NCBI GenBank assembly: GCA_029245245.1
Contig: JAQWPT010000021.1
Location: 62,001 to 126,000, forward strand
Origin: Phycisphaerales bacterium
Lineage (GTDB): Bacteria > Planctomycetota > Phycisphaerae > Phycisphaerales > SM1A02
Direction: 5' to 3'
DNA length: 64,000 nucleotides
The translations under genes and the position numbers were made by a program. The notes under the pieces are model-generated. The model did no database searches. It saw nothing but the letters and a program-made list of their open reading frames with translations, and was not told where the DNA came from. How positions within the stretch are numbered: position 1 is the stretch's first letter; the number at the start of each line of letters is the position of its first letter. This document shows, piece by piece, positions 100 through 64,000 of the stretch.

Positions 100-2217
100 A
101 TGCACGCCCGCGTTCTGTTGCCGACACTTCTTCTTCTCATGACAGGATGCCGATCCATGTCTACCCAGACTCCGCCCGATGCGCCAGAGCGACCCGTCAA
201 GGTCACGACCCACGGCGATGTCCGTATCGACGAGTACGCCTGGCTCCGTGAGAAGGAGAATCCCGAGGTCATCGAGTACCTCGAACAGGAGAACACGTAC
301 GCGCGAAACCGGATGTCGCATACCGAGGTGTTCCAGGAGACGCTCTACGAGGAAATGCTCGGTCGGATCAAGCAGGATGACGCCGACGTGCCCTGGCCGA
401 AGAACGGGTACCTGTACTACGACCGGACCGAGGAAGGTCGCCCATACCGGATTCTCTGCCGTCGCAAGGGTTCCATGGATGCTCCCGAGGAGGTCATGCT
501 CGATGTCAACGAGCGGGCTGACGCAGGTGGATACATCAGGGTGACGGCTTCGTCCGTCAGTCCCGATGGCACTCGGCTCGCCTGGCTGGAGGACCGCAGC
601 GGGTACGAGCGATGCGATCTCTTCGTCAAGGATCTCCGCAGTGGGGAGATCATCGAAGAGTCCCTGCATGAACTCAGCCCATGGTCTCTGGTCTGGGGAA
701 ACGACAATGAGACCCTCTTCTACACCAGGCAGGACGAAACGAACCGCCCCGATCGGGTGTACCGCCACCGCCTTGGAACGGAGTCAACTTCGGATGAACT
801 CGTGCTGCACGAACCAGATGGTCGATTCTTCGTCGGCATCGGTCGGACTCGCAGCGGCCGCTGGCTCATGATCAACCTCGGATCGCAGATCACCAGCGAA
901 TACCACGTCCTGGATGCAGATGATCCCTGGGGAGACTTCACCGTCCTGTCACCACGGCGGCAGGGCATCGAGTATTCCGTCGATCATCGGGGTGAGCACT
1001 TCTACATTCTCACCAACGACCAGGCGATGAACTTCAAGGTCATGCAGGTGCCCACGTCGAACCCCGGCTCCGAGCACTGGACGGACCTCGTGGCTCATGA
1101 TGACGGCACCTACATCCTCGGTGTCGATGCGTTCCGCGATCACCTTGTGATCTCACAACGCAGCGGGGGCTACCGGCAACTCAGGGTGCTGGACCTTCGT
1201 GACGGCTCGTCGCGGGTGCTTGAATTGCCCGAGGAGGTTTCGACGGTCCGCCCCGACGTGAACAGGGAGTTCGATACGGACGTCTACCGGTTCGGGTACA
1301 CCTCCATGACGACGCCTTCGTCGATCTACGAGGAAGACCTCGACGGCGGGACGCGTACGTTGTTGAAGCAGGACGAAGTGCTCGGCGGCTACGATCCCAG
1401 CCGGTACGTGACGCGGCGCATCATGGCGACCTCCGCCGATGGCACCGCCGTGCCGATTTCGGTCGTCCATCGGAATGATCTTGAGCCCGATGGAACGAAT
1501 CCGGTCCTGCTCTACGGGTACGGTTCCTACGGCGCCTCGATGGATCCACGGTTCTCCTCGACGCGCGTGTCCCTGCTGGATCGCGGAGTCGTCTTTGCCG
1601 TGGGACACATCAGGGGAGGCAGCGAGATGGGTCGCCGCTGGTACGAGGACGGCAAGTTTCTCAACAAGCGACATACCTTCGAAGACTTCATCGCCTGCGC
1701 TGAAGCGTTGCGTGACAGCGGGTGGGCGGATCCAGACCGTATCGCCATCCAGGGTGCCTCGGCTGGGGGACTCCTGATCGGCGCCACGATCAACATGCGG
1801 CCGGAACTCTTCTGCGCCGCCCATGCCGGGGTGCCGTTCGTCGATGTCATGAATACCATGCTCGACCCGACCATTCCGTTGACGGTCATCGAGTACGAGG
1901 AGTGGGGCAATCCGAACGACCCGGTCTACTACGAATACATGAAGTCGTACTCGCCGTACGACAACATTGCGGCCCAGGACTATCCGGATCTGCTGGTGAC
2001 GGCCGGGCTCAACGATCCGCGTGTGCATTACTGGGAGCCGGCCAAGTGGACGGCTCGACTTCGCGACCAGTGGACGGGTGATTCCGTGCTCCTGCTGAAG
2101 ACGAACATGGGCGCAGGCCACGGGGGGGCCAGTGGCCGGTACGAACGGTTGCGGGAGATCGCCTACGAATACGCGTTCCTGCTCGACCGTCTCGGTGCCC
2201 CCATGGACGACAGGTAG
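100..2217 (+). CDS. ptrB: Oligopeptidase B-like S9A serine peptidase, lipoprotein
   Basis: Prolyl-oligopeptidase-family (S9A) enzyme that cleaves short peptides, here probably after basic residues in the periplasm or at a membrane. The N-terminal motif HGDVRIDEYAWLREKENPEV and the C-terminal stretch EEWGNPNDPVYYEYMKSYSP are hallmarks of oligopeptidase B rather than of prolyl oligopeptidase itself. The N-terminal two thirds should form the seven-bladed propeller. The alpha/beta-hydrolase domain carries the visible triad Ser554 (GASAGG), Asp639 (GLNDPR) and His674 (GAGHGG). A lipobox (LMTGC, Cys17) follows a leucine-rich signal peptide, so the protein is probably a lipoprotein, whereas the E. 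coli enzyme is cytoplasmic. GGAG lies 8 nt before this ATG. The next gene starts 3 nt after the stop. Substrate preference is inferred from family only. Confidence 0.93.
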   Translation: MHARVLLPTLLLLMTGCRSMSTQTPPDAPERPVKVTTHGDVRIDEYAWLREKENPEVIEYLEQENTYARNRMSHTEVFQETLYEEMLGRIKQDDADVPWPKNGYLYYDRTEEGRPYRILCRRKGSMDAPEEVMLDVNERADAGGYIRVTASSVSPDGTRLAWLEDRSGYERCDLFVKDLRSGEIIEESLHELSPWSLVWGNDNETLFYTRQDETNRPDRVYRHRLGTESTSDELVLHEPDGRFFVGIGRTRSGRWLMINLGSQITSEYHVLDADDPWGDFTVLSPRRQGIEYSVDHRGEHFYILTNDQAMNFKVMQVPTSNPGSEHWTDLVAHDDGTYILGVDAFRDHLVISQRSGGYRQLRVLDLRDGSSRVLELPEEVSTVRPDVNREFDTDVYRFGYTSMTTPSSIYEEDLDGGTRTLLKQDEVLGGYDPSRYVTRRIMATSADGTAVPISVVHRNDLEPDGTNPVLLYGYGSYGASMDPRFSSTRVSLLDRGVVFAVGHIRGGSEMGRRWYEDGKFLNKRHTFEDFIACAEALRDSGWADPDRIAIQGASAGGLLIGATINMRPELFCAAHAGVPFVDVMNTMLDPTIPLTVIEYEEWGNPNDPVYYEYMKSYSPYDNIAAQDYPDLLVTAGLNDPRVHYWEPAKWTARLRDQWTGDSVLLLKTNMGAGHGGASGRYERLREIAYEYAFLLDRLGAPMDDR

Positions 2218-26489: not shown

Positions 26490-26525
26490 AAAAAGACACC
26501 TGCCCGCCTGGAAGGCGGGCAGGTG
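26490..26525 (-). terminator. Intrinsic terminator of the small membrane protein gene
   Basis: A 12-bp perfect GC-rich stem (CACCTGCCCGCC and its complement, 5-nt loop, 26497-26525) is followed on the minus strand by TCTTTTT. It begins 28 nt after the stop of the 82-residue protein gene. Confidence 0.9.
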
Positions 26526-56247: not shown

Positions 56248-56248
56248 A

Positions 56249-56301: not shown

Positions 56302-59229
56302 TCAATCCACTTCTCCGCGGCCGGGGAATGAGATCGTGATGGGGCCACCACCGCCACCCATTTCGTGGCTGTTGTAGATGTACTGGGCATCACGGACGCG
56401 ATCGATCATTGCGACGACCTCCTTCAGGTGGGCCTTCGTGTAGGGATCGATCGTGCTCTGGTTGGCGTTCATGAAACTGCTCGCGTTGCCCCGCAGTGTC
56501 TGCAGGTGCATTCGGCTGAGATTCTGAACGGGGGTGGCGGCCGAGCCGAAGCCATTGGCCGGCATGCTCATGTCGATGAGCCGTTCCAGGTGTTCACGCT
56601 GGAGGTTTCGACGCAGCGATGTGATGTATGGGGACCTCGCATCGTACTGGTCGTTCGGTTCCTCGTAGATCTCTGTCCACACGGCCTGGTGCACCGTGTC
56701 GAGTACTTCGGGCATCGTCACCACATCCTCGTCTTCCAGGGCCCGGAACTCGTTGTCGTGGATCCGGTTCATGGTGGTCGGGTTCATCAGCTGCGACAGC
56801 GCGGAAGCCTGGATACCGGAGATGCGGGAGTGCACCGGCCAGGTTTCGTCCGAGAAACTTCTGCTGCTGCCATCGAACCATCGGTCGACGGTCATGTGGC
56901 GCAGCAGTTCGGGTGAAAGACCGAAGGCTTCGTCGTACATGGTGTTGTCGAGCACGACCTGCAACGCTCGTCGCTGCTGCTCGGCCTCGATGGGTGCGAT
57001 GGGAGGCCGGTTGCCCGGATCACCCTTCTTGTCGCGATTGACCTTGCTGCCGCCGACCCAGTTCGAAGCAATGCTGACGGCCTGGACATGCTTGTTCAGC
57101 AGCATCTCGTAGGCACGTCGTGCCTTGGCCCAGCTGTCACCATCTTCGACCATCTCTTCGAGAATCTTCTCACGCAGGGTTCGCACGAGTTTCATCTGTG
57201 ACTCGGTGTAGTTCAGCGGATTCTTGCCGTGATCGAAACGACGTGCGCGTGGATCCGGTCCGCCGGTGTCTTCATCCGTTGCGTAGATGAGTTGCGGTTC
57301 GGCGACCCGTGCAAGGATCGGCTCAAGACTCTCGTTCGTGTATCCGTACTCGATGGCCCAGTAGTCGTAGGGACCGATGGTGACCATGGTGTAGTCACCC
57401 TGGACGGCGTCCTCATCGGTGTTGATGTTCACCGGCATGTAGTCCATGACCGAGCCGGCCTGGGCGGTACCGATGAAGCCTTCTTCGTTCATTTCTTCGA
57501 GGCTGTAGATGGTCGAGGCCTTGAAGTTGTGGCGAAGGCCGAGGGTGTGACCAACTTCGTGCATGATCACGTCCCGGAGCATCGGTCCGATGAAGTACTC
57601 GGGGACACCGTCAAGCTTCTGAACCTCTACCACGACTTCTTCAGTGGAAGGATTCTCTTCGGCGGCATCGTCAGTCTTCTTCTTTTTCTTCCTCTTGCCC
57701 TTGCGTGATCCCTGCTCCTGGAACAGTTCGGGATTGAGCCGGAACATGGCGACGTCCATTGCACGCACGGCACAGTGCTGGCAGGAGCCATTCACCTGGC
57801 TGATGCGGTGCACGAGGCCGTCGTACTCATCGTCTCCGAGCAGGGTGGGGTCGGACTCGAACGCGGGGTGACCGGTCGTGGTGCGACTTGCGCGAGCAAC
57901 GGCCAGTTGCTTGAGGACCGTCTCCCGCATGGAGGGATCGACGAGCCGGACACGGGGGTCGTAGTCCGGGCGATCCTCGAGCCACTTGAGAGTCAAGGGG
58001 CCGAAGTTCTCCATGGCGGTCTGGGGAACGAGCTTCTGCCAGGTCCTGACCCAGCCGGTGATGAAGCCTTCATCCATGACGATGTCGGCGTCGAGAATCT
58101 GTCCAGTCTTGGGATGCACGCGGCTGGGGCCGATTGCAAAGCCCATGCCCGAGTTCGTCCAGAGGATGAAGTTGTATCGTGCGTCTTCGGGATCCTTCTC
58201 CATGTGGGCGCCGGTGGTCTGATCCTGCTGGTAGACCTCGATGGCGTTGACGATGCCAACCTTCTCGAATGCCTTGTTCCATTCCAGGATGCCGTCACGA
58301 ACCCATCGGCGATAGCGGACGGGGGTCGTGTGCTCGATGTAGAAGACGATGGGCTTCTTTGGGGGGCTCATCTGGAGGGAAGGATCCGCCTTCTCCACGT
58401 GCCACCGGTTGATGTACCGGACGTAGGGCGTCTCCTCGGAGGCGTTGCCGATGTCACGGTGGCTCGTCACGAAGTACCCGATGCGTTCATCCGCTTCGCG
58501 CGGCTTGTAGCCGGTGTTCTCCGGGATTTCAGCGAGGGAGTAGTAGATGGTGCCGAAACGTCCGTTGCTCAGGGGCATTTCGAAGGCCAGTTCGACGTTG
58601 CTCGGGAAGGACTTGGCCTTGACCGTCTTGGCCAGTTTCGTGTTGGCGCCCCGGGTTCTGCTGCCGAAGAAGTTGGAGGCGCGACCAAGGAACAGGTCTG
58701 AAAGGTTGATGACAGGTCCGCCGCCGGGGCCCATGGTCAGGATGGGCACGTCCAGGATCACTCGATCCGTGTAGACCCGCTTGTGACCGCTCTTGGACTG
58801 CGCATCACCCGTGGATCGAGTTGCGTAGTTGGGTTCGACCAGGGCCAGTTGCTTGCCGAACTGCTTCCAGTAGGCATACATGTCGCCGGTCTGGACACCA
58901 GAGGTCGAGACGCCACCCTTGATCGTGTAGGCAAGGAAGATCTTCTGTTTCGAAAAGTTCCTCGGCAGTTCGGCGAGGAGGTCGCCCTCCTTGTCCCTGT
59001 AGATCGTGTACATCCCGGGATCACCGTCCGCGGACGAAATCACCTTGTTGTAGTTCTTCGTGACTTCCTCGAACTTCGGAAACTCGGGATTGGAGTCACC
59101 ACTGGGCTGCCGCATTCCGGGGCGAGCGATGGTGGTGTCTTCCTGGGCCTGCGTTGCCGGAGTGGGAAGTACGAGGGCACTGGCCGCCAGGGCCAGGAGA
59201 GCGGTCGTCAGGGTGCGGTACGTGGACAT
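56302..59229 (-). CDS. Large zinc-dependent metalloprotease (DUF5117/DUF4953 type)
   Basis: A 975-residue exported metalloprotease. After a signal peptide (ALLALAASALVLPTPATQAQ) come the DUF5117-like N-terminal part (GDLLAELPRNFSKQKIFLAY) and the conserved block VRYINRWHVEKADPSLQMSP. The gluzincin-like active site is HEVGHTLGLRH (His557, Glu558, His561, His567), and the Met-turn is SVMDYMPVN, about 45 residues later. A low-complexity lysine/glutamate insert (KGKRKKKKKTDDAAEENPS, about residue 508) sits just before the active-site domain and is unusual. The start at 59229 has AGGAG 9 nt upstream. A secreted protein-degrading role is inferred from family. Confidence 0.9.
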   Translation of the reverse strand: MSTYRTLTTALLALAASALVLPTPATQAQEDTTIARPGMRQPSGDSNPEFPKFEEVTKNYNKVISSADGDPGMYTIYRDKEGDLLAELPRNFSKQKIFLAYTIKGGVSTSGVQTGDMYAYWKQFGKQLALVEPNYATRSTGDAQSKSGHKRVYTDRVILDVPILTMGPGGGPVINLSDLFLGRASNFFGSRTRGANTKLAKTVKAKSFPSNVELAFEMPLSNGRFGTIYYSLAEIPENTGYKPREADERIGYFVTSHRDIGNASEETPYVRYINRWHVEKADPSLQMSPPKKPIVFYIEHTTPVRYRRWVRDGILEWNKAFEKVGIVNAIEVYQQDQTTGAHMEKDPEDARYNFILWTNSGMGFAIGPSRVHPKTGQILDADIVMDEGFITGWVRTWQKLVPQTAMENFGPLTLKWLEDRPDYDPRVRLVDPSMRETVLKQLAVARASRTTTGHPAFESDPTLLGDDEYDGLVHRISQVNGSCQHCAVRAMDVAMFRLNPELFQEQGSRKGKRKKKKKTDDAAEENPSTEEVVVEVQKLDGVPEYFIGPMLRDVIMHEVGHTLGLRHNFKASTIYSLEEMNEEGFIGTAQAGSVMDYMPVNINTDEDAVQGDYTMVTIGPYDYWAIEYGYTNESLEPILARVAEPQLIYATDEDTGGPDPRARRFDHGKNPLNYTESQMKLVRTLREKILEEMVEDGDSWAKARRAYEMLLNKHVQAVSIASNWVGGSKVNRDKKGDPGNRPPIAPIEAEQQRRALQVVLDNTMYDEAFGLSPELLRHMTVDRWFDGSSRSFSDETWPVHSRISGIQASALSQLMNPTTMNRIHDNEFRALEDEDVVTMPEVLDTVHQAVWTEIYEEPNDQYDARSPYITSLRRNLQREHLERLIDMSMPANGFGSAATPVQNLSRMHLQTLRGNASSFMNANQSTIDPYTKAHLKEVVAMIDRVRDAQYIYNSHEMGGGGGPITISFPGRGEVD

Positions 59230-59371
59230 GGGGGTCGACTCCTAGGGGATACTGTCCTAACCAGTGAACCCCCGATCCTAGCTGGAACTTGCACCGGGTG
59301 GCGAAAAAAACCACTCTTCCAAGCACAGAATCCAGTGTGGGGCCGTTGGGGGCCTCGTGGCTGGAATTGAA

Positions 59372-59404
59372 CACCGGCCCGCTCCACGGGGGAACGGGCC
59401 GGTG
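59372..59404 (-). terminator. Hairpin after the beta-helix gene
   Basis: CACCGGCCCG pairs with CGGGCCGGTG (10 bp, 13-nt loop), starting 24 nt after the stop of the minus-strand beta-helix gene. No T-run is seen. Confidence 0.55.
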
Positions 59405-59428
59405 CGATGCAGTCGAAATGAAGGCGCC

Positions 59429-61027
59429 TCAGGGGCAGGTGGTGGAGATCGTATTTCCACCAAGATCCACGAAGAGGCCATTGATGTTGACGGCACTGTT
59501 GGCACAGATGAGCGAGGTGCCGACGAAGGACACCGAGGACCCGTCTGTGGTCAATCCACCGGCGGCGAAGGCCGAGCCCCATGCCTGGTTGCTGCGGATC
59601 TTGCAATTCCTGACGGCGGCCTGGGAGTTGATCTCGTTCAGGATTGCTCCGCCTTCACTGGCCTGGTTCTCGTCGAAGGTGCTGTCGCCCATGTGGAAAT
59701 CACTCTGGTTGGTGACGTAGCACGCACCGCCGAGGTACACGCCCATGTTCGCGTAGAACTCCATGCGGGTGAAGTAGCCCTCGGACTGGTCCAGTTTCAG
59801 GCCGCCACCATCGTTGCCGGCGGCGTTGGAAGCGAATGCAGTCCTGTCGGAGTCCACACGGGTGTTCTGGGCGTAGAGACCGCCACCATCCTGCTGGGCC
59901 TGGTTGGCTTCGAAGCGGGAGTTCCTGATCAACAGGGGCTGCGGCGAAGCCGTGAAGATGCCGCCACCATTCATGGCGATGTTCTCCTTGAGCTCGGTGT
60001 CGAACACGGAGGCCGTTTCGGTCTTGAAGTAGCACACACCGGCGCCCTGATCGGCGGCATAGTTGTGGTGGATGCTGCTCATGTTGATCTGGTGGTCACC
60101 AAGCCGCTTGCGGACGAGGATGCCTGCGCCGTCGCGGTTCGCCCGGTTTTCCCACAGGTTGCAGAATTCCAGCAGCACGTCGCCGATGCCCTGGTGGTAC
60201 ATGCCACCACCGTTGTTGTATGCCAGGTTCCTGGCGGCATCGACACCCAACAGGTGCAGTTGCGTATCACCGCTGAACATGCCACCGCCATCATTCGACT
60301 CGTTGGAGTCCAGGAGGCACTGTTCCATGTAGATCCGGGATTTCTTGTAGTACACACCTCCGCCACTTCGGGTGGATCGGTTGTATTGGACGGTGGTTCG
60401 TGCGATGAACATGTCGGTCTTCGAGCCATGGATGGCGCCACCGAATCCGACGATTCCACCGCCGGCCATGCCGTTGATCATCTGGCAGTCAAGGACCTGT
60501 GGTCTGCCACGACGGGCATCAAGGTGTCCACCACGAGTGGTTGCGGTATTCATGTCGAACAGGCAGTATTGGAAGACCGTCTTGCTGTTGAAGACAGCCG
60601 CTCCGCCACCGGTCATGGCCTGGTTGTTCAGGATGTGGCATTCATGAACCCGCGGGCTGCTCCCGTTGATCCACAGGCCTCCGCCATTGGGGGCCAAGCC
60701 ATTGGTCAGGATGAGTCCTTCGAGCATGGTGGCACTGGTTTCGCCACTGACGCAGGAGACGACCGGACCAGCACCGCCGCCATCGACGGTGACGCTTCCA
60801 AGGCCGGCGTTGGCACGGATCTGAAGGTCCTTGCCAAGCAGGTTCAGGTTTTCAATATAGAGTGCGGGATAGACTTCGATCGAATCACCAGTTGCCGATG
60901 CGTTGATCGCCTGCTGGATGAGCGGGAAGTCGTATCCGCCACCAGGACCGACGGTCCAGGTTGCGGCATGCGTCATGGTGGCGAGTCCGAGGGCGGCGGC
61001 CGTCATGGTGAGTGTTGAGTGCTTCAT
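59429..61027 (-). CDS. Secreted parallel beta-helix protein
   Basis: A 532-residue exported protein that should fold as a right-handed beta-helix. After a signal peptide (ALGLATMTHA) it has about fifteen irregular turns of 20-25 residues with a repeated GGG motif (NGGGLWINGS, SGGGVYYKKS, DGGGMFSGDT, DGGGLYAQNT, DGGGLKLDQS). These motifs and the end NTISTTCP are typical of pectate-lyase-like repeat proteins, but no catalytic residues are evident. A surface adhesin or polysaccharide-binding role is likely. The ATG at 61027 has AAGGAA upstream, with a longer in-frame start at 61075 rejected because it precedes the signal peptide. It has the shared TGTGAGA leader motif. Confidence 0.83.
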   Translation of the reverse strand: MKHSTLTMTAAALGLATMTHAATWTVGPGGGYDFPLIQQAINASATGDSIEVYPALYIENLNLLGKDLQIRANAGLGSVTVDGGGAGPVVSCVSGETSATMLEGLILTNGLAPNGGGLWINGSSPRVHECHILNNQAMTGGGAAVFNSKTVFQYCLFDMNTATTRGGHLDARRGRPQVLDCQMINGMAGGGIVGFGGAIHGSKTDMFIARTTVQYNRSTRSGGGVYYKKSRIYMEQCLLDSNESNDGGGMFSGDTQLHLLGVDAARNLAYNNGGGMYHQGIGDVLLEFCNLWENRANRDGAGILVRKRLGDHQINMSSIHHNYAADQGAGVCYFKTETASVFDTELKENIAMNGGGIFTASPQPLLIRNSRFEANQAQQDGGGLYAQNTRVDSDRTAFASNAAGNDGGGLKLDQSEGYFTRMEFYANMGVYLGGACYVTNQSDFHMGDSTFDENQASEGGAILNEINSQAAVRNCKIRSNQAWGSAFAAGGLTTDGSSVSFVGTSLICANSAVNINGLFVDLGGNTISTTCP

Positions 61028-61142
61028 TGGATGGTTCCTTGCTTGATGCAGAATGAGGCTGGCAAGGATGATCACGCTTGTGATCGGTCTCCACGGGCGT
61101 TGCGAGGGCCGCGTGGTTGTGTGGCCTGCCAGCTACAGGTGA

Positions 61143-61169
61143 TGCGAACGAGCCGGCATGAATCTCACA
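61143..61169 (-). promoter_or_regulatory. Shared leader motif TGTGAGA-N16-CGCA
   Basis: Minus-strand TGTGAGATTCATGCCGGC, then CGCA 16 nt after the heptamer, 116-142 nt before the ATG at 61027. A small hairpin (CCTG/CAGG) follows. Confidence 0.45.
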
Positions 61170-61185
61170 GGGATCTGGCTGAGAT

Positions 61186-61217
61186 GAGAAAAGAAGCCCT
61201 GGAGGTTATTCCAGGGC
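61186..61217 (-). terminator. Intrinsic terminator, second of a tandem pair
   Basis: GCCCTGGA pairs with TCCAGGGC (61196-61217, 6-nt loop), followed on the minus strand by TTCTTTTCTC. Confidence 0.75.
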
Positions 61218-61218
61218 C

Positions 61219-61268
61219 AAAAAAGAGAAGGGCCGGGATCGCACCTGTTCAGGCGATCCCGACCCTTC
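61219..61268 (-). terminator. Intrinsic terminator, first of a tandem pair
   Basis: A 16-bp stem with one mismatch (GAAGGGCCGGGATCGC at 61227-61242 with 61253-61268, 10-nt loop) is followed on the minus strand by six Ts. It lies about 300 nt after the Gfo/Idh stop, an unusually long 3' distance. Confidence 0.85.
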
Positions 61269-61566
61269 CTCCGATTCCCCACAGGAGCCAGGGGGGGCAT
61301 CGTGCGAAGCGAGAGAGTCCCGGAAGGACTCGGTACGAAAGACCCCGTGGGGGGCCGTCGCGGCGAATCGATGCCTGCGACCGATGCAGGAGACCGCAGG
61401 CATCGCGGTTCCAGGCGCGTGGCGTCTGGAAATCTCTTCCCTTCTCTTCGCACTTGAATCAACGTGGCGTGTGTGCCGCCGGTGTTGAGTTCGTACCCCG
61501 GCCCGCGAAGGTTGCGGAAAGGTTGCAGAATTATTCGGTTGTGCCCTGGGGTCACGGATGGGGGGA

Positions 61567-62925
61567 TCAGGCGGGACGCATGGTCTCGGTTTCCGCATCC
61601 CAGAGCATGACCTTGTCCTGGCGGTAGGACTCCACGGCCATCTTGATGGCGACCATCGTGGATGCCCCGAGATCCACGTTGCAACTGAGTCGGTCCCCGT
61701 TGCGGACGGCATCGAGGAAGTTGCCCATGTGATCGCGTCGGCCCTGCACGTCATGCCGGCTCACGGCTCGCCCGTTGGCGGGTTTGGTGATCTGCTTGCC
61801 GTCATCGTCGGTTTCGGTGGTGACGGTCACGGTGTCCGAGTTTGCCTTGCGGAACTCGTCGGCCCAGGCCGCCTGCTCATGCAGTGCGATCCCATTCTCG
61901 AACTTCATGGTGCCGTACTGACCTCGAATGATGTCCGGGACCCCGAGGTCGTTGGTCATGACGCTCACCAGCACCACCGTGTGCTCCGAGGGATAGTCCA
62001 CCATCATCATGAAGGAGTCGGGAATGTCCCGCTCGTCCTTCTCGAGATAGCGACCTCCGGAGGCCACGACCCGGCGGGGGTATTCCCCCTCGTGTCCGCT
62101 GATGGCGAGCAGGAACGGGGCGAGCTTGTGGTAGAGCAGGTCGGTGGCGACGCCGCCGTTGTAGGCGAAGTACTTGCGGAAGCGGAAGAAGTGGTCCGGG
62201 TTCCACTCGATCTTTTCGGCGAGGCCGTGCTCGTGTCCGAGCCATCGATCCCAGTCCACGTAGTCCGCACTGGAGGGGTCGTTGCCGGGTCCGGCGCCGG
62301 GGTCGATGGTCCAGTTGAACTGACCGCCGCGTGAATTGCGACAGTAGCTGCTCTGGCTCCAGACGGGCTTGCCGATCCGTCCCTCGCCGATGAGTTTCCT
62401 CGCGGTCCAGTACTCACCGAGACTCGTCCGCTGGGGCCCGACCTGGAGCGTGCGCCCGGTCCGCTTGACCGCATCGCGGCATTCGAGGGCCTGGGGAATC
62501 GTCAGGGACAACGGCTTCTCGCAGTAGACGTCCTTGCCGGATTCCATGGCTTCGATGGCGATCTTCGTGTGCCAGTGATCCGGGGTGGCGATCACGACGG
62601 CATCGACATCACCGTTGTCGAGCACCTGCTCGTAGCGCATCGTGCCGCACCCGTCGCCATGGCCGATGACGTTCATCGCGTTGTTGAGTCGCTTGCGGTA
62701 GACGTCGCACACCTGGATGACATCAAGGTTGTCATCGTTCTTCCGCTTGACGAGGCTGTTGGTGTGGCCGGTTCCCATTCCGCCGGTGCCGACGACCGCC
62801 ATGTTCAATCGATCGTTGGAACCCATGATCCTGGCGTAGCTGCTGGCGGGCAGCCAACTGGCGGCGGCCGCCGCCGCGGAGGTCTTGAGAAACAGTCGAC
62901 GGGACGAACTGGATTCATGCGGCAT
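61567..62925 (-). CDS. Tat-exported Gfo/Idh/MocA oxidoreductase
   Basis: A 452-residue NAD(P)-dependent oxidoreductase with a twin-arginine signal (SSSRRLFLKTSAAAAAASWL). The Rossmann motif is NMAVVGTGGMGTGHTNSLVK (about residue 42). Typical family blocks follow: ATPDHWHTKIAIEAMESGKD, VYCEKPLSLTIPQALE with the catalytic lysine of the EKP motif, and KYFAYNGGVATDLLYHKLAP. Substrates in the family are sugars and inositols. This one is exported, probably with its cofactor bound. The ATG at 62925 is chosen because it directly precedes the twin-arginine region and has AAGGAGC upstream. It is separated by 52 nt from the nitroreductase gene upstream. Confidence 0.92.
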   Translation of the reverse strand: MPHESSSSRRLFLKTSAAAAAASWLPASSYARIMGSNDRLNMAVVGTGGMGTGHTNSLVKRKNDDNLDVIQVCDVYRKRLNNAMNVIGHGDGCGTMRYEQVLDNGDVDAVVIATPDHWHTKIAIEAMESGKDVYCEKPLSLTIPQALECRDAVKRTGRTLQVGPQRTSLGEYWTARKLIGEGRIGKPVWSQSSYCRNSRGGQFNWTIDPGAGPGNDPSSADYVDWDRWLGHEHGLAEKIEWNPDHFFRFRKYFAYNGGVATDLLYHKLAPFLLAISGHEGEYPRRVVASGGRYLEKDERDIPDSFMMMVDYPSEHTVVLVSVMTNDLGVPDIIRGQYGTMKFENGIALHEQAAWADEFRKANSDTVTVTTETDDDGKQITKPANGRAVSRHDVQGRRDHMGNFLDAVRNGDRLSCNVDLGASTMVAIKMAVESYRQDKVMLWDAETETMRPA

Positions 62926-62977
62926 GGGGAGCTCCTTGTGCTCACAGCCTACCTCCGAATCGGATCGGGGCGAGGCC

Positions 62978-63733
62978 TCAGTCCAGGCTGGCACCTTGTT
63001 GTCGGTAGTACGGTGCGACGGAGACGCGGCGGGGAGCGATGAACTTTTCGATCATCTGGGAGTTCCAGTCCCGGCGGGGGGTGGTGGCATCGGGTGAGCC
63101 GCCTTCCCGGGCCTGGTAGTAGTCCGCGACGACCTGGTCGTATTCGTCCATGGCGGCGAGCATTGCTTCATCCTCGGGCCACTGCTCCTCGAAGAGCACC
63201 TGCTCGAGGGGAAGCCTGGGACGGCGCATCGGATCCTGGTCCGGGTGTCCGATGCACAGTCCGAAGAGCGGGTAGACCCCGTGGGGAAATCCAAGCAGTT
63301 CCTGAACCTGCGGCAGATCGTTTCGGAGGCCGCCGATGTAGCACGCGCCGTACCCGAGAGACTCGAATGCCAGGACGACGTTCTGGGCGAACAGGGTGGC
63401 GTCGACAATCGCCAGCAGAAAGGCTTCGAACCGTGCGTCGTAGGTTTCGTCGGCACGCTCGGCCAGGAGTCGATGTCTCCTCGTGTCACCGCAGACCACG
63501 AAGAACGCTCCGCATCGTGCCACCTTCGTCTGGTTGCCGGTCAACTCGATGAGGCGGTTTCTTCGTTCCACGCTGCGGATGCGGATGATGCAGTAGGACT
63601 GGATGCTTGCGCTCGTCGACGCCATCTGCCCGGCCTCGATGGCCGCAGCGACATGGGCTTCCTCGACGGGCTCATCGGTGAATCGGCGGATGGAGCGGTG
63701 AGCGAGCATCTGCTCGATGACGGCATTCATCAT
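62978..63733 (-). CDS. Nitroreductase-family FMN oxidoreductase (NfsA-like)
   Basis: A 251-residue flavoprotein of the NfsA/FRP branch of the nitroreductase family, using NAD(P)H to reduce quinones, nitro compounds or flavins. Signatures are LAHRSIRRFTDEPV at the start (FMN phosphate), GQMASTSASIQSYCIIRI, LAFESLGYGACYIGGLRND, and FGLCIGHPDQDP. The C-terminal basic NADPH-binding tail is present. Two ATGs at 63733 and 63730 are possible. AGGAG is 3 or 6 nt upstream respectively, so the second is slightly better placed. It lies between the ThiF-like and Gfo/Idh genes on the same strand, 9 nt after the ThiF-like stop. Confidence 0.92.
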   Translation of the reverse strand: MMNAVIEQMLAHRSIRRFTDEPVEEAHVAAAIEAGQMASTSASIQSYCIIRIRSVERRNRLIELTGNQTKVARCGAFFVVCGDTRRHRLLAERADETYDARFEAFLLAIVDATLFAQNVVLAFESLGYGACYIGGLRNDLPQVQELLGFPHGVYPLFGLCIGHPDQDPMRRPRLPLEQVLFEEQWPEDEAMLAAMDEYDQVVADYYQAREGGSPDATTPRRDWNSQMIEKFIAPRRVSVAPYYRQQGASLD

Positions 63734-63742
63734 GTTCTCCTG

Positions 63743-64000
63743 TCAGGTCCCGATGTAGCGGGCATAGATCGTGCGTGCATGCTCGGGAGTCGTGCTTCCC
63801 TTGATCAGGGCTCGTCCATCGGGGAAGACGGTCAAGTCGACACCGGCTTCCTCCAGTCGCCCGTGAAGGACTTCGCTGGATTCACGGAAGGTGCCGTGTT
63901 TCGCCAGCCGACCCGCCAGGGCGTTCAACGGCAACGCGTCGCATCCGGGATCCGGCTTCACCTGGACCGCATCACGGCCACAGAGCACGGTGGTGGTGGA
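63743..64000 (-). CDS. ThiF/MoeB-family adenylyltransferase, C-terminus only
   Basis: The C-terminal 85 residues of a protein that continues past the window edge. The open frame runs to base 64000 with TTTVLCGRDAVQV, the usual end of the catalytic domain of ThiF/MoeB-type adenylyltransferases. It is followed by a small C-terminal domain (FPDGRALIKGSTTPEHARTI) and the end YARYIGT. Such enzymes adenylate the C-terminal glycine of sulfur-carrier proteins in thiamin or molybdopterin synthesis. The GTG at 63988 is within the frame and is not the true start. Which carrier it serves cannot be told from this fragment. Confidence 0.85.
   Translation of the reverse strand, partial: STTTVLCGRDAVQVKPDPGCDALPLNALAGRLAKHGTFRESSEVLHGRLEEAGVDLTVFPDGRALIKGSTTPEHARTIYARYIGT

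Follow-up and report, generated by a model that had tools for sequence, protein, structure and literature searches.

The window analysed here, a 64-kb stretch of DNA from an uncultured Phycisphaerales bacterium, carries a gene for a Gfo/Idh/MocA oxidoreductase (62925–61567; PF01408, PF22725), a downstream gene for a beta-helix-type secreted protein (61027–59429; weak match to PF02415) and a gene for a Met-zincin metalloprotease (59229–56302), and all genes at this place lie on the minus strand. The first two are separated by a gap of 539 nt, which holds a conserved structured RNA of 235 nt (61453–61219, minus strand), bounded by its closing stem P1 and by the T-run that follows the terminator T1. 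In two further genomes of the genus, L044 (= G001, UBA854) and L005 (= G002, UBA3160), the same block is located directly 3' of Gfo/Idh and before the beta-helix gene. In L006, L007, L008, L011, L012 and L018 the Gfo/Idh gene is followed by the metalloprotease gene without a beta-helix gene, and in the Gfo/Idh–metalloprotease interval of the relatives L006–L008 neither the RNA nor the beta-helix gene was found. Orthologues of the beta-helix gene occur, among the loci compared for gene order, in L005 and L044 only. In this genus the RNA and the beta-helix gene thus lie together between genes that are adjacent elsewhere. The two are linked historically, from which a functional link does not necessarily follow.

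Conservation and distribution of the block

A search at the DNA level in 101 genomes, its own included, recovered the gap region in its own genome and in the two congeners with 74–76% identity over 61451–61224, so that the block is present in 3/3 genomes of the genus. Across 61457–61223 the mean pairwise identity of the three genomes, taken per 40 nt, is 0.56–0.77, compared with 0.37–0.52 in the spacer between Gfo/Idh and the block and with pairwise values of 0.435, 0.508 and 0.446 at the fourfold-degenerate sites of Gfo/Idh. Behind T1 the identity is 0.39–0.40 over the second terminator-like hairpin T2 and 0.50–0.56 between T2 and a point shortly ahead of the beta-helix start. As the identity of the block is above that of the spacer and of the fourfold sites and falls after T1, we conclude that the block is under selection and that this selection ends at T1; that it represents a structured RNA under selection is, in our judgement, very likely.

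Using the model R1 on 181 genomes of the family and 400 of the order, we obtained no convincing further homologue, with the limit that stricter filters lose weak matches. The family search gave seven matches at E ≤ 0.5, those of the three genus genomes being full length; the matches of G136, G137 and G138 covered T1 only (16–19 bits) and were dropped, as was that of G050 (15 bits). In the order the four matches at E ≤ 0.05 were the genus three and G138. Matches in L023 (20.0 bits, overlapping a metalloprotease match), L109 (18.4 bits, partial) and L091 (15.0 bits) were not accepted as homologues, and a DNA match of 32 nt in G089 was rejected because it lies inside an open reading frame resembling a pseudopilin, a name taken from its translation. 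The RNA has so far been seen in three genomes of one genus and is presented as a candidate.

None of the known RNA families accounts for the block. With Rfam 15 at gathering score neither the window nor any of 8 related loci gave a match, and a permissive scan returned 15 sub-threshold matches (best E 0.18), none near its own gathering score. ARAGORN found no tRNA or tmRNA gene in the window. The 96%-complete own genome (G000) gave no match to 6S RNA (RF00013, E ≤ 1). 6S RNA is one long bulged hairpin; the candidate falls into the same size class and would share with it independent transcription, but it has a branched core instead.

Folded structure and covariation

The three-sequence alignment A2 folds with RNAalifold at −99.8 kcal/mol versus −50.9 ± 4.4 kcal/mol for column shuffles (z −11.0, 0/200), and without T1 the minus strand still reaches z −7.9. 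The plus strand scores z −9.3, or −7.4 without T1, which is expected because the helices are read in reverse; these values are weaker than those of the minus strand, and the T-run is present on the minus strand only. In the combined structure a two-sided change with pairing kept was observed in 12 of the 78 pairs and 92.6% of the cells are paired, values of which neither was reached in any of 500 shuffles, and sliding the partners left 0–3 two-sided pairs and 39–50% paired cells; these counts come from three sequences, and one of the controls is biased towards the structure, since it was this alignment that yielded it. We therefore regard the covariation as strong but not final evidence for the predicted fold. 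Together the data describe a noncoding stretch with conserved RNA structure, as looked for in a small RNA gene, in three sequences. The original prediction had offered lack of structural conservation in relatives as its refutation; with a covarying fold kept in all three genus genomes it has withstood this test.

Folded singly, the three cores follow a similar plan with the closing stem P1, the branches P2, P3, P4 and the P5 region, and P6 outside the core. Without T1 the sequence of L044 is weakly better than its shuffles (z −1.40, 21/200), and the other two genus sequences reach z −2.95 and −5.84 (0/200 each). A stretch of 375 nt of the window including T1 and T2 gives z −6.71 (0/100). By comparison, the RNA is built from P1 enclosing P2 to P5, then the small hairpin P6, then T1.

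Fold and alignment place P1 with its 5' strand GUGCGAAG at 61446–61453 and its 3' strand CUUCGCAC at 61302–61309 (minus strand, like all following elements). It has 8 bp with a two-sided change in 2/8 pairs, one of which is broken in L044. P2 (61409–61431) is the core branch with most covariation, showing two-sided change in 3/10 pairs and 83.3% paired cells. P3 (61369–61405) carries UCUCCUGCAUC in its loop in the window and is the hairpin of 11 bp that had been noticed ahead of the first terminator; it is real and folds with 12 to 14 pairs. P4 has approximate ends (61336–61360) and two-sided change in 2/11 pairs, and P5 (61315–61331) was read from the sequence as GAGUCC-UUCCG-GGACUC. P5 is weak in L044, where its pairs differ and it is missing from the centroid. 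Outside the core, P6 (61277–61294) has the form CCCC-UGGCUCCUGU-GGGG with CUCCU in the loop. Its GGCTCCTGTGGGGA is invariant in the 3 genomes, and the string CCCCNGGCTCCTGTGGGG of P6 occurs in one copy per genus genome and nowhere else among the 151 genomes searched (3/151). A possible pseudoknot between the loop of P3 (61405–61369) and the linker after P1 (61302–61297), GCAUCG with CGAUGC on the minus strand, was considered by eye and rejected, having 6 bp in the window and 5 bp in L005 and being absent from L044.

Terminators and a possible promoter

The T1 stem (61269–61226, minus strand) is followed by a T-run at 61225–61219; it folds into 19 pairs with one bulge at −35.8 kcal/mol, then TCTTTTTT, and it begins 298 nt past the stop codon of Gfo/Idh, whose final base is 61567. 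A hairpin/T-run scan identified T1 as the most stable such site in the 64-kb window, and the best sites of 30 randomised order-1 Markov windows had −16.5 to −30.5 kcal/mol. All three genus genomes have T1 as a complete, stable hairpin, and the T-runs of L044 and L005 behind it are short (CTCGTTTT). The RNA thus has the intrinsic terminator end that is looked for in a small RNA gene. A stock terminator scan with a loop limit of 8 listed T2 and not T1, and between 59000 and 64000 it gave 5 sites versus 3.5 ± 2.1 in shuffles.

T2 (61218–61195, minus strand) is found in the window species only and has 9 pairs at about −17 kcal/mol, and it ends about 168 nt short of the ATG (61027) that starts the beta-helix gene. 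Sites at −14 kcal/mol or below number 13 in the window versus 8, 10, 5 and 6 in four controls. The strength of T2 is what chance gives, and T2 is ordinary and not conserved. Two such sites at most 80 nt apart on one strand were observed in 1 of the 30 randomised controls. The original prediction of two terminators was correct in that both hairpins with T-runs exist, on the minus strand. As T1 beats all 30 randomised windows and T2 is unremarkable, T1 is the part of the pair that matters. Other good intrinsic terminators on the minus strand are located at 56248, just past the metalloprotease stop (−24.9 kcal/mol), and at 26496 (−27.3 kcal/mol).

For the 5' end a weak promoter had been proposed. 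A sigma-70 promoter scan of 59000–64000 found none, and what the alignment offers in its place is a different, conserved promoter-like footprint, GSAACC-N14-TRCGAA at 61515–61490 (minus strand), in an ungapped part of alignment A1. Judged by eye in the three genomes, 10 of the 12 hexamer columns but only 1 of the 14 spacer columns are invariant, with a constant spacing of 14 nt, which resembles that of ECF sigma-factor promoters. In simulated neutral alignments (100 columns, spacings 12–20) such a dyad arose with a frequency of 0.12% at an identity of 0.40, 0.68% at 0.46 and 2.26% at 0.51, and these chances are optimistic since the footprint was sought post hoc, after inspection of the sequences. 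The pattern has 8 matches in the three genus genomes, 3 of them being this same site, versus 4 for the reversed control; being no commoner than the control by that count, it does not indicate a regulon. The footprint is perhaps the promoter of the RNA. Transcription from it would begin near 61485 and yield an RNA of about 267 nt; alternatively the RNA may start near 61455, and in both cases it would be released at T1.

Stand-alone RNA or part of a neighbouring transcript

The best reading of these data is a stand-alone small RNA of about 235–270 nt ending at T1, a candidate to which we assign a probability of about 60%. The main point of the earlier suggestion, a small RNA about 300 nt long and separate from its neighbours, is supported, as a conserved and covarying structured RNA does precede T1 and its conservation stops there, while its independent transcription is our inference. 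The main rival, which we consider possible though on the doubtful side, is a structured 3' UTR: transcription would run from upstream of Gfo/Idh into T1, and the fold would stabilise the Gfo/Idh mRNA or be cleaved off as a 3'-derived small RNA. The RNA lies on the Gfo/Idh strand and directly after this gene in all 3 genus genomes, and T1 is the first strong terminator past the stop, all of which fits such a UTR. However, 108–118 nt of poorly conserved spacer separate the stop from the core, and the promoter-like footprint sits inside that spacer. Furthermore, 14 gaps 3' of Gfo/Idh in other Phycisphaerales contain no such RNA, showing that Gfo/Idh does not need it.

It had also been proposed that the RNA is a leader of the beta-helix gene controlled by termination, and an attenuated leader or riboswitch with T1 and T2 as regulated terminators would be in line with the co-occurrence of RNA and beta-helix gene in the genus and the lack of both in the L006–L008 interval. 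We consider this improbable, and the comparison does not support the proposal: T1 is complete in each of the three genomes and T2 exists in the window only, no antiterminator common to the three was seen by eye, and the identity falls to 39–56% after T1. Judged by eye, the loop of P5 is complementary to the 5' strand of T1 in both the window and L044, whereas L005 lacks this complementarity. In addition, R1 found no like element at 26 non-genus beta-helix or paralogue loci apart from weak partial matches, and T2 is followed by conserved elements that belong to the beta-helix gene itself, such as the inverted repeat near 61081–61064. Overall, the original prediction is partly supported.

This inverted repeat, GATCAC-N4-GTGATC on the minus strand, lies about 40 nt upstream of the beta-helix start, shows a symmetric change in L044 (GATCGC/GCGATC) and is present in a shorter version in L005. 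It is a candidate operator or 5'-UTR hairpin of the beta-helix gene.

That the block encodes a short protein and owes its conservation to codon constraint is very improbable, even if long open frames cross it (61206–61754, 182 aa) and some short peptides, DAPPGSCG among them, are shared by the window and L005. The mismatches by codon position are 20, 22 and 22 between the window and L044, with no third-position excess, and 12, 20 and 27 between the window and L005, a mild one; indels change the relative frame inside the block in all pairs, leaving no consistent reading frame, and the 182-aa frame has no Pfam match. Chance folding of a GC-rich spacer next to an ordinary terminator is very improbable as well: GC-rich DNA folds easily and L044 without T1 is unremarkable, but the identity above that of the fourfold sites and the two-sided changes already disfavour it.

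Possible mode of action and comparison with known RNAs

For the stand-alone small RNA we propose, tentatively and as a possibility of rather low probability, an anti-Shine-Dalgarno mode via the loop of P6. The branched core might serve as a scaffold of high stability that leaves the P6 loop GGCUCCUGU exposed; acting in trans, this loop might pair with ribosome-binding sites of the AGGAG type and so repress translation without Hfq. The own 96%-complete genome gave no match to Hfq (PF17209), the control being positive in 5/14 genomes. The loop carries CUCCU, is conserved and is predicted to be single-stranded, as looked for in an anti-Shine-Dalgarno sRNA. Its pairing with the regions upstream of 42 crude gene calls beats that of 97 of 100 shuffled loops; in the same test shuffles were as good or better in 6/100 cases for P5, 39/100 for P3 and 91/100 for P2. 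AGGAG precedes 9 of the 42 calls, and the CUCCU of the P3 loop is lost in L005. The predicted pairing lends weak support to a mode like that of AbcR1/2.

AbcR1/AbcR2 and NfeR1 of Sinorhizobium meliloti are described as trans-acting sRNAs with anti-Shine-Dalgarno loops (PMC8844928), and the candidate has in common with them a CUCCU-type motif that sits in the loop of a hairpin and could base-pair with ribosome-binding sites. According to the same source AbcR1/2 have CUCCUCCC and UUCCCCUC and tested targets, whereas the candidate has a single invariant CUCCU loop with predicted pairing, a larger branched core and a genome without detected Hfq; a sequence relation is not claimed. Lineage-restricted structured RNAs found by comparison include whalefall-1 and Gut-1, and like these, which are given there without affiliated function, the candidate emerged from comparative structure in uncultured bacteria (PMC2864571). 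Unlike the RNAs of that study, it is known from only three sequences. Rhodopirellula-1 is listed there for Planctomycetes without an Rfam number (PMC2864571). For the PVC group as a whole a review table contains 8 small RNAs (PMC9029176), and a literature search for small RNAs of Phycisphaerales had none among the matches listed. In a group with very few catalogued small RNAs such as the Planctomycetes, the candidate is compact and covarying with clear ends and offers a precise target for transcriptomics, as well as an example of a lineage-specific RNA whose genome gave no match to Hfq.

An alternative that we regard as unlikely is a new class of branched RNA restricted to one Phycisphaerales genus and acquired with the beta-helix gene at the Gfo/Idh–metalloprotease junction, whose multi-branch core would bind a protein or ligand rather than act through a simple antisense loop. 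In this connection a second, strongly folded element was observed in L006, a locus of another genus (g5), in the gap after Gfo/Idh and on the strand opposite to this gene (1745–2010, minus strand; z −6.10, 0/200; plus strand z −2.24). It ends in a GGGCCGGG...CCCGGCCC hairpin, and a DNA search of 181 family genomes recovered it in its own genome only (1/181). R1 gave L006 23.5 bits on the opposite strand, and it was not accepted as a homologue; its element aligns poorly with the RNA of the genus and is apparently unrelated. If the reading as a new class were true, the L006 element would suggest that new RNAs settle in this gap repeatedly.

An apparent resemblance of the metalloprotease leader of L007/L008 to the RNA (GGGAAGAG, GCCACGCG) was dropped as well: nhmmer gave no match for L007/L008 at E ≤ 10, and the window's metalloprotease gene retains a promoter of its own. 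Before the metalloprotease gene a TAGGAT-type box is present in the window (about 59270–59240, minus strand), L006, L007, L011, L012 and L018, with TACGAT in L008 and a CTAGGATCnGGGGTTCACTGG-like sequence in the window, L006 and L007. The box is likely a promoter type of this lineage.
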